64,000 nucleotides of DNA from Methanolacinia petrolearia DSM 11571 (GTDB lineage Archaea > Halobacteriota > Methanomicrobia > Methanomicrobiales > Methanomicrobiaceae). The notes under the pieces were generated by a model that worked only from the letters and a program-made list of their open reading frames with translations, was not told the DNA's origin and made no database searches. The position numbers and the translations under genes were made by a program. The stretch covers positions 1,736,001 through 1,800,000 of the forward strand of contig NC_014507.1 of assembly GCF_000147875.1 (NCBI RefSeq), given 5' to 3'. Every line of letters starts with the position of its first letter. The stretch's first letter is position 1. Of the stretch, positions 2,849 to 56,755 are shown in pieces.

Positions 2849-3445
2849 GGGCATAAGCCCCTTTCAAAGTTTTGGAATATATACAGGGAGGGGGATGATT
2901 TCCCCCTCCCTTGAACCCTCCCCCTCATGGCGATAGTCACCGTCGGGATGGGCAAGCATCCCTCCGGCTCCGTTTTTTTGGGCTGCTTCTTATAACTTGT
3001 TTTACGTTTTCTGATAGATCTCTCCCCCCGGCCGGGGCTACCCGGATGGGTAGCGCCCAGGACGGGCTATCATCTTTGCGAAAGTTCGCGTAGCGAACTG
3101 AGCACCGGGTTGCCCCAAAGGGGCTTAGGCCCTCTCAAAGTTTTGGAATACAGGGAGGGGGATGATTTCCCCCTCCCTTGAACCCTCCCCCTCGTCGCGA
3201 TAGTCACCGTTGGGATGGGCAAGCATCCCTCCGGCTCCGTGAATATTTGGACCACCTTCTAAAACTTATTTTACGTTTTCCAAAAGTTTTCTCCTCCCGG
3301 CCGAGACTACCCGGAGGGTAGTGTCCAGGCCGGGCTATCACGATTGCGAAAGTTCGCGTAGCGAACTGAGCAGTGGGTTGCCCCGAAGGGGCTTAGGCCC
3401 TCTCAAAGTTTTGGAATACAGGGAGGGGGAGGACTTCCCCCCCGC
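2849..3445 (+). repeat. Repeat family A: two tandem units plus a partial third
   Basis: A GC-rich unit of about 270 bp is repeated head to tail: the marker TCAAAGTTTTGGAATA begins at 2864, 3135 and 3403. Each full unit contains a stem CTACCC/GGGTAG nested inside CCCGGCC with GGCCGGG (unit 2; one mismatch in unit 1). It also carries AGTTCGC/GCGAACT (3083-3089 with 3093-3099 in unit 1) and GCCCC/GGGGC hairpins, and a CCCCCTCCC run. Related copies lie inverted at 15711 and 56525. The array fills the gap between birA and the bioY operator. Short open frames inside it have no credible start or composition and are not genes. Confidence 0.85.
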
Positions 3446-15676: not shown

Positions 15677-15710
15677 ATCTCCCCTCCCTTCTATCACAGG
15701 TTTTTTAATG

Positions 15711-15892
15711 CCATAAGCCCCTTCGGGGCAGGCCAGTGCTTAATTCGCTACGCGAATTTACGCAATGAAGATAGCCCGGTCTGGACGCTACCCATCCGGG
15801 TAGCCTCGACCGGGAAAGATCTATTTCAATATAAGAAAACAGGAGCGAGGAAGGATGCTCGTCCATCCTTCTCGCGACTTATCACAATCAAA
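15711..15892 (-). repeat. Repeat family A, inverted copy
   Basis: This reads in reverse orientation to the tandem units at 2849-3445. Its hairpins are GCCCC/GGGGC, AATTCGC/GCGAATT (15742-15748 with 15752-15758), and CCCGGTC/GACCGGG (15775-15781 with 15808-15814) enclosing GCTACCC/GGGTAGC. The stem bases differ from the other copies but stay complementary. With the repeat-D element that follows, it fills the 300-base gap between two convergent genes. Confidence 0.85.
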
Positions 15893-25220: not shown

Positions 25221-25304
25221 TTGCCTGAATTTTATAGATATTATGATATATAGATATTTTTTTCTCCCGGGAGATGTGGTATATCTCAACACATCTTTGA
25301 CAAC

Positions 25305-25515
25305 CCCTCGCCGCCAACCGCTTCGCAGGATGGCGGATCGGCCCCGGCCCCGGGGCCTCTCATTGCGATAAGCCACTCAGGGGACAGGCGAGTATCCCCT
25401 GAGCGGCGAGACGTGGTAAATCGATGACGACTATGGGAACGGAATTATGTCACAGAAAACTAAATTCAACAGCCCGGGGGACCCTTGCCGGTCCCCGGGG
25501 TTGCCGGAGTATGAG
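25305..25515 (+). repeat. Repeat family B, copy 1 (short form)
   Basis: A GC-rich element with three stable hairpins: GGCCCCG/CGGGGCC (25341-25358), a long stem GCCACTCAGGGGACA with TATCCCCTGAGCGGC (25372-25386 with 25393-25407, two mismatches), and GGGGACC/GGTCCCC (25477-25483 with 25490-25496) around the loop CTTGCC. It lacks the distal 90 bases present in copies 2-4. It lies in the 480-base divergent gap between the antiporter and the HEAT gene. The remainder is AT-rich and holds the HEAT promoter. Confidence 0.88.
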
Positions 25516-27899: not shown

Positions 27900-27956
27900 A
27901 AAAGTGGGTCCTCTGCTAATCTACATTGTTGTGAAGATTATATTTCGCTACTTTTG

Positions 27957-28238
27957 ACAACCCCTCGCCGCGAGCCGCACAGAAGGCTCGCGGACCGGCC
28001 CCGGCCTCGGGGCCTCTCATTGCGATAAGCCACTCAGGGGACAGACGAGTGTCCCCTGAGTGGCGGGACGCGGTGAATTCATAGCGTGTACGGAATGGAA
28101 TATGCCCCAAAAACTAAATTCAACAGCCCGGGAGACCCTTGCCGGTCTCCGGGGCGTGCCGTGAGAAGAGAATCTCAAGGCAAGGCCCCTGGGCAGGGGC
28201 CGTCCGGCGGCACGGCCGCCGGTGCCGGGGTCGCCAGA
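27957..28238 (+). repeat. Repeat family B, copy 2 (full length)
   Basis: The best-preserved copy, about 280 bases. Hairpins in order: CCGCGAGCC/GGCTCGCGG (27968-27976 with 27985-27993); GGCCCCG/CGGGGCC; a perfect 15-base stem GCCACTCAGGGGACA/TGTCCCCTGAGTGGC (28029-28043 with 28050-28064) with loop GACGAG; GGAGACC/GGTCTCC (28131-28137 with 28144-28150) around loop CTTGCC; GGCCCCT/AGGGGCC; and GGCGG/CCGCC. It separates the glutamate synthase gene from the convergent rpo-nusA operon. No gene is seen in the surrounding gap 27900-28380. Confidence 0.9.
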
Positions 28239-28380
28239 ATTGATCTTTAAGAAAAGTACAACAATACCATGTGAGGAGAAGAAAATAAAAAGCATTTCCG
28301 AGCTCTGAATGTACGTGAGCACGTGTGCCATCCCGAAATTATATACACACGTGAAATAAGCGAAAAATCAAAAAAAGTGA

Positions 28381-41974: not shown

Positions 41975-42325
41975 TACTCAGGCAACCGGGCTGTTGATTC
42001 TTTTTGCTATCTTATGTCTTCCTCCGGCGGCGACCCCGGGCACCACCGGCAGCCAGGCCGCCGGACGGCCCATGCCCAGGGGCCTTGCCTTAAGATAATC
42101 TTCCCACTGCACGCCCTTGGGACCGACAAGGGCCCCCCGGGCTGTTGAATTTAGTTTGCTAAGTACATTCCGTTCTGTACACGCCATGAATTTACCGCGT
42201 TCCGCCACTCAGGAGATACTCGTCTATCCCCTGAGTGGCTTATCGCAATGAGAGGCCCCAAGGTCAGGCCGACCTGCGAGCCTGCTGTGCGGCTCGCGGC
42301 GAGGAGTTGCCAAAAATTGTGAAAC
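41975..42325 (-). repeat. Repeat family B, copy 3 (inverted)
   Basis: Opposite orientation to copies 1 and 2. The key stems are CCCTTGGGACC with GGCCCCCCGGG around GACAAG (42114-42124 with 42131-42141, three mismatches), GCCACTCAGGAGATA with TATCCCCTGAGTGGC (42204-42218 with 42225-42239, one mismatch), and CTGCGAGCC with GGCTCGCGG (42274-42282 with 42291-42299, one G-T pair). It begins the 1.3-kb gene-free stretch 41923-43254. Confidence 0.9.
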
Positions 42326-47394: not shown

Positions 47395-47797
47395 AGATCT
47401 TTCTCAGGCGACCCCAGGCACCACCGGCCAAAAGCCGTCGGACGGCCCCTGCCCAGGGGCCTTGCCCTAAGATAATCTTCCAACGGCACGCCCAGGGGAC
47501 CGGCAAGGGTCCCATGGGCTGTTTATTTGGTTTTGTCTGGAAATCCTGATTGAGATTCTTTAGATCCCTTGTCCTGAATTCATTTTTCAGGAATAATATT
47601 CCCACATAATTCCACCACCGGCACATGAAAGAATTCCTCTGGGAGAAAGACGCCCGGCAAGTGTTATGAGCTTACCGCGTCTCTCCGCTCGGGGGACACT
47701 CGCCTGTCCCCTGAGTGGTTTATCGCTATAGAGAGGCCGCGAGGCCGGGGCCGATCCGCGGGCCTGCCTGGCGGCCCGCGGCGAGGGGTTGCCAGCG
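47395..47797 (-). repeat. Repeat family B, copy 4 (inverted, expanded)
   Basis: Stems: GGCCCCT/AGGGGCC; CCCAGGGGACC with GGTCCCATGGG around GGCAAG (47491-47501 with 47508-47518, one mismatch); CCGCTCGGGGGACA with TGTCCCCTGAGTGG (47685-47698 with 47705-47718, two G-T pairs); and a perfect CCGCGGGCC/GGCCCGCGG (47756-47764 with 47773-47781). The central spacer is about 100 bases longer than in copy 3 and contains a further CCTGAA/TTCAGG hairpin. It fills the gap 47289-47838. Confidence 0.88.
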
Positions 47798-56524: not shown

Positions 56525-56755
56525 AGGGCATAAGCCCCTTCGGGGCAGCCCGGTGCTCAGTTTGCTGCGCAAACTTTCGCAAATTGCGATAGCCCGGCCT
56601 GGACGCTACCCATCCGGGTAGCCTCGGCCGGGGAGAAAAAAACAAAGGGGTACCGGAGCCGGAGGGATGCTTGCCCATCCCGAAGGCGACCTATCGCCAT
56701 GTGGGGGAGGGTCACAGGGAGGGGGAACCTTCCCCCTCCCTTAATCCGAATATTT
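56525..56755 (-). repeat. Repeat family A, inverted copy between two cobalt operons
   Basis: Stems: GCCCC/GGGGC; AGTTTGC/GCAAACT (56559-56565 with 56569-56575); and CCCGGCC/GGCCGGG (56593-56599 with 56626-56632) around GCTACCC/GGGTAGC. A distal block GGAGGGATGCTTGCCCATCC and GGGGGAACCTTCCCCCTCCC follows. It fills most of the 319-base gap between the convergent cbiE and cbiO genes. Confidence 0.88.

Follow-up and report, generated by a model that had tools for sequence, protein, structure and literature searches.

Does a dispersed repeat whose stem bases change in pairs between copies betray a working RNA, or can a mobile element leave the same trace? The question is raised by a multi-hairpin element in a 64,000-nucleotide stretch (the window, bases 1,736,001-1,800,000) of the single 2,843,290-bp contig that constitutes the complete genome, here labelled G000, of Methanolacinia petrolearia, formerly named Methanoplanus petrolearius SEBR 4847T (PMC3035365, PMC4149034). 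An earlier note on this DNA had described four copies of the element in the window and had read their paired stem changes as a sign that a fold, most likely of RNA, is under selection. The four copies are indeed present, two on the plus and two on the minus strand, and both the paired changes and the dispersed multi-hairpin family are genuine. The RNA reading as worded is not upheld, because the copies constitute a transposon family with no fixed gene orientation, many of them are truncated, and a tree-aware test finds no significant pair. Instead, the family very probably represents old non-autonomous ISL3-derived elements (MITEs), which carry a palindromic multi-hairpin core as a passenger and have lost their driver.

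The reference copy (copy 2) contains a near-palindromic multi-hairpin core of 287 bp at 27952-28238 on the plus strand (profile match 1-287), almost exactly as previously delimited, but homology of its arms to other copies extends the whole element of left arm, core and right arm to about 27907-28369. Complete elements measure about 0.45-0.5 kb, and their arms end in GGCTCTTCG... inverted repeats. The core is made up of two halves placed head to head, each with three or four hairpins, and is closed by P1, whose left end at 27956-27964 (GACAACCCC; family consensus GGCAACCCC) is an inverted copy of its right end at 28227-28235 (GGGGTCGCC; family consensus GGGGTTGCC). On the plus strand half A comprises P2 (9 bp; 27968-27993), the nearly invariant P3 (7 bp; 27997-28014) and P4 (15 bp; 28029-28064), whose loop GACGAG reads CTCGTC on the minus strand; half B comprises P5 (12 bp with one mismatch, loop CTTGCC; 28126-28155), P6 (28157-28182), P7 (7 bp, loop GGGC; 28184-28201) and P8 (8 bp; 28204-28222). 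Each half matches the other in inverted form, the profile recovering its own reverse strand in other copies with E-values down to 2.7e-13. Outward from the A/T-rich centre, each half begins with its long hairpin (P5 on the plus strand, P4 on the minus strand), continues with a GGCCCC hairpin whose loop has four bases (P7, P3) and a GC-rich outermost hairpin (P8, P2), and then closes with GGGGTTGCC; P6 is an extra hairpin restricted to half B. The near-constancy claimed for the loop applies to both halves, where it reads CTYGYC when each is followed outward. The centre itself varies and may include additional palindromic inserts. Folding of the core lies far above that of shuffled sequence (z = -9.5 and -9.4 for the two strands). 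A long-range P3-P7 pairing offered by fold prediction was dropped in favour of local hairpins, as the seventh pairs agree locally (G-C in half A, T-A in half B). The remaining window copies are copy 1 (core 25300-25505, plus strand; right arm to about 25556), from which P6-P8 are deleted and whose orthologue in the sister species G001 (C32:180548) is full-length; copy 3 (42029-42315, minus strand; orthologue G001 C32:163648), with a full core and a mosaic right arm; and copy 4 (47406-47794, minus strand; profile match), with a full core and an enlarged central spacer.

The ends of the element tie it to a known transposon family. In complete copies the left arm begins with GGCTCTTCGYTAATCTGTGTGGGTATAAAAGCAAGTTTCACTACTTTT and the right arm finishes with TATTTACCCACATGAAACAGCGAAGAGCC, and the inverted repeat GGCTCTTCGYT... 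occurs at 17 sites in the genome, nearly all flanking a core, with none for the reversed control. Just outside these repeats the best-preserved copies show A/T-rich target duplications of 8 bp, which are exact in three well-preserved cases (AATTTTAT at 997654, AAATAAAA at G001 C31:86353 and ATATTTTTT at 2096062), match at 6-7 of 8 positions in other copies and are not visible in several degraded ones. Both ends of copy 2 are degenerate (left-end inverted repeat GGTCCTCTGCTAATCT..., right end ...TATATACACACGTGAAATAAGCGAAAAATC), and its duplication AAAAAGTG is a candidate of uncertain register. Intact ISL3-family insertion sequences of 1292 and 1351 bp are found in the related genomes G012 and G007, respectively, the G012 element with a 404-aa transposase ORF, and all four copies examined have exact 8-bp duplications. 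The two ends of these insertion sequences differ from each other, and our element reproduces this difference: its left end matches one ISL3 end at 23 of 27 positions and the other at 19, and its right end matches the second at 24 of 27 and the first at 20-21. The published ISL3 element ISArsp7 (PMC6305408) likewise combines ends of the form GGCTCTTCGCG... with an 8-bp repeat, so that inverted ends of the type GGCTCTTCGC..., the 8-bp duplication and the left/right difference are features shared with the ISL3 family as represented by ISArsp7 and the G007 and G012 copies. Unlike those elements, ours has no transposase gene and contains an unrelated near-palindromic hairpin core, and its host keeps no ISL3 transposase. 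As nothing in the G007 and G012 ISL3 elements matches the core, it does not derive from the ISL3 element.

The two distinguishable ISL3-type ends and the 8-bp duplications identify the element as an ISL3-derived MITE, and its short length, multiple copies, intergenic positions, missing transposase gene and an empty site in a relative are those of a MITE. Since the ISL3 transposase (PF01610) is found in G007 and G012 but absent from G000, G001 and G002, the case for mobilisation by ISL3 is built on the ends and duplications; an old MITE family does not strictly need a cognate transposase in its own genome. We propose that an ISL3 transposase supplied in trans would have recognised the ends and placed the element in A/T-rich DNA between genes, with the core of two head-to-head hairpin modules as a passenger between the arms, and that the enzyme would since have been lost, leaving mostly old copies. 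Many copies lack one or both ISL3-type arms, and the existence of a second left-arm type and of tandem arrays implies that simple ISL3 transposition did not produce every copy. A sequence of about 330 bp in G007 (L144:512-870) has the same ISL3-type ends around a different A/T-rich interior and lies immediately before an intact ISL3 copy; it is likely another MITE of the same ISL3.

A whole-genome search returned 54 matches to the element in G000. Fuller counts than those of the first search, in which scoring was limited to 40 candidates, come from genome pattern scans with the half signatures, which located half B at 50 sites and half A at 44, against none for the reversed-pattern controls; combined with the profile search they give about 50 loci, some of which are tandem arrays of up to five copies. 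Each of the 42 loci examined lies between genes (15 convergent, 20 tandem and 7 divergent by rough ORF calling), and many copies are truncated, inverted or deleted. The orientation of the element relative to genes is not fixed, with 7 in the same and 13 in the opposite direction in tandem contexts. A role as 3'-UTR or terminator was dropped, because the gene context, as far as rough ORF calling defines it, shows no consistent orientation. The distribution of the approximately 50 loci is far from random: the pattern scans place every copy within G000:C1 470,873-2,297,230 and none in the stretch of about 1.02 Mb that runs across coordinate 0 (36% of the genome, from 2.297 Mb round to 0.471 Mb), and if this coordinate lies near the replication origin the family would avoid the origin side. 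Tandem arrays at G000:C1 1681744-1695976 and on G001 C39 contain three to five cores with a common spacer, AAGATCTGAACATACTAACATGGCCAAATCAG, and define a subfamily in which two P4 pairs are disrupted by symmetric A-to-C changes on both arms. A short palindromic module of a separate kind, GTTTCATGNACTGTTTCATGTAAATCACAACGTGATTTTCATGT, turns up repeatedly in the core spacer and in the arms (the 765788 and 1887052 loci, the flank of G001 C2:9223 and several central spacers), and at an orthologous G001 site (C32:54.6 kb) it stands alone.

Comparison with relatives allows the insertions to be placed in time. The element occupies the orthologous site in the sister species G001 at 31 of the 42 loci examined, with flanks mostly 88-98% identical. 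No copies of the family were found in G002, of the same genus, where the convergent genes around copy 2 are separated by only about 20-30 bp, that is, by an empty site. On this comparison most insertions are older than the split of G000 and G001 and younger than that from G002, unless the family was lost in G002. Individual loci have not been stable since, undergoing inversion in place, deletion of hairpins and exchange of sequence: at 778920, 1037234 and 1663855 the core lies in opposite orientations in G000 and G001, indicating in-place flips; at 765788 the whole element is flipped and the core deleted between the two; and at 522048 only the element ends remain in G001. An exact-pattern scan of about 85,000 species gave no match, and a covariance model of half A, run against 199 genomes of the order, detected, besides G000 and G001, just four half-A copies, all of them in G009, an absence elsewhere that is provisional given the stricter filters of Infernal and the poor automatic structure of model R1 (two misaligned G009 rows). 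The elements of G009, a member of another genus, contain half A only, measure about 270 bp (L048, L050, L052 and C1:312431) and have different inverted ends, G(C/T)(A/T)GTATCCCRAAWTYATTTGACA, with a possible 9-bp duplication, TAAAAGATT, at L052. The matching left-arm type is present in some Methanolacinia copies as well. Counting the ISL3-type arms, the half-module has thus travelled with two or more types of arm.

The paired changes themselves withstand scrutiny. The CTTGCC-loop stem does read GGAGACC/GGTCTCC in one copy and GGGGACC/GGTCCCC in another, CCGCGAGCC/GGCTCGCGG of copy 2 does correspond to CCGCGGGCC/GGCCCGCGG of copy 4, and the long stem does end in ACA/TGT or ATA/TAT. The G-T pairs by which copy 4 was said to keep pairing exist on the plus strand of the window only; the element's own plus strand is the opposite one, where they are A-C mismatches, so that these examples favour no one strand. 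Across 55 copies there are 3303 Watson-Crick cells against 3189 +/- 7.5 in shuffles. The percentage paired, the doubly changed cells and the covariation score surpass all 500 shuffles in both halves, the count of doubly changed pairs does so in half B and is reached by 28 of 500 shuffles in half A, and slid registers score far lower than the true one. An R-scape-like form of the covariation check that had been suggested, which takes a tree into account, gives no pair at E<0.05 genome-wide among 40,755 column pairs. The null of this test preserves the rates of the sites and presupposes a tree, an assumption broken by recombination between copies, and it is therefore probably conservative; the highest-ranking of the 40,755 column pairs is a predicted P5 base pair, and predicted pairs take 6 of the first 50 ranks, where 0.09 would be expected. 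The paired stem changes are real, yet alone they are no proof of a working RNA.

Template switching between hairpin arms at DNA replication is documented to yield the same compensatory pattern, restoring stems and flipping loops (PMC8794818). This raises the possibility that the changes are purely mutational, produced by template switching, arm-to-arm correction and gene conversion with no selection on the fold. The in-place flips, the hairpin deletions and the G-C to C-G exchanges, which occur in P2 and P8 without intermediates, fit template switching, and in the stems of orthologues 17 double changes preserve pairing and 2 break it, compared with 6-11 double changes in slid registers. Taken together, the inversions, deletions and flips suggest that correction between arms at the DNA level acts alongside selection. 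A mutational account on its own is opposed by the divergence at orthologous loci, where not only the stems (8.1%) but also the unpaired core and linkers (11.6%) and the loops (9.4%) are conserved relative to the spacer (24.7%) and to fourfold sites in neighbouring genes (17.8%); the core is under constraint, to which gene conversion between copies could contribute. It is also opposed by the stronger depletion, on the outward strand, of A-C cells (35 against 84 in shuffles, or 42% of expectation) than of G-T cells (168 against 226, or 74%), a difference that arm correction alone does not predict. Both observations suggest some selection on a single strand, and we regard the purely mutational account as tenable, though not as the probable one. 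As part of the MITE model, pairing would be kept by a mixture of forces that these data do not separate: template switching or arm-to-arm correction, gene conversion between copies, and a degree of selection acting on the folded strand, for which the simplest purpose would be to propagate the element and not to serve the host.

The core might instead be a structured non-coding RNA, or a divergent pair of RNAs, that serves the host or acts in regulation, is disseminated by transposon arms and is selected for its fold. The covariation above shuffles, the conserved CTYGYC loops and linkers, the divergence of stems and unpaired core below that of fourfold sites, and the preponderance of wobble over A-C cells when the halves are read outward from the centre are all consistent with such an RNA, as is a TATA-like box, a possible promoter, seen about 25 bp before the core in no more than 19 of 41 left arms. 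On the outward strand the wobble bias is a lead only, driven by few columns and expected in part from composition, as the shuffled counts indicate. Among the Rfam models run over the window only tRNAs reach gathering scores, with no match for the element; the variable gene orientation, the many copies that are truncated or differ in orientation between sister species, the missing family in G002 and the tree-based result likewise argue against this alternative, which from the available sequences appears unlikely. A similarly unlikely reading is that the two halves of the core each form an independent functional module, a structured RNA or a single-stranded DNA that reads outward, and that two or more transposon backbones have taken it up, the ISL3-type in Methanolacinia and the other arm type in G009; were this so, the transposon would serve to carry a structured nucleic-acid parasite or regulator of a new kind. 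Finally, a REPIN-like inverted doublet of palindromes, mobilised in single-stranded form by a Y1 (RAYT-type) transposase, is very improbable: although REPINs share the general plan, an intergenic head-to-head pair of inverted hairpin modules multiplied within a genome (PMC3116915), and the present family is likewise genus-specific with singlets of one half, its half-modules of about 130 bp with three or four hairpins are much larger than the short REP palindrome, its ends are ISL3-type and not RAYT-type, and it has 8-bp target duplications, which REPINs lack.

The elements also resemble prokaryotic MITEs with structured transcripts, such as Correia, ERIC and QMITE (PMC10969869), which are also non-coding and intergenic, with terminal inverted repeats, target duplications and predicted stable folds. 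They differ from these in having seven hairpins in a GC-rich core in place of a simple A/T-rich stem, in sharing a core half with a second arm type, and in being archaeal and genus-specific. The family is a new one of ISL3-derived MITEs, a known kind of element, and has an unusual palindromic multi-hairpin passenger. It indicates that a mobile element, and not a cellular RNA, can yield convincing compensatory stem changes across repeat copies. The 31 sites common to two species, with a third species without the family, offer a natural series for following inversion, deletion and paired change of hairpins in place. To our knowledge the MITEs of methanogens are little described, and a large genus-specific family, tied to ISL3 through both of its ends, is here added to them.

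The window also contains a second dispersed multi-hairpin family, unrelated in sequence to the element studied here, at 2849-3441 (partly in tandem), 15681-15814 and 56525-56636, with the motifs CATAAGCCCCTTCGGGGC... and GATAGCCCGG...GCTACCCATCCGGGTAGC.
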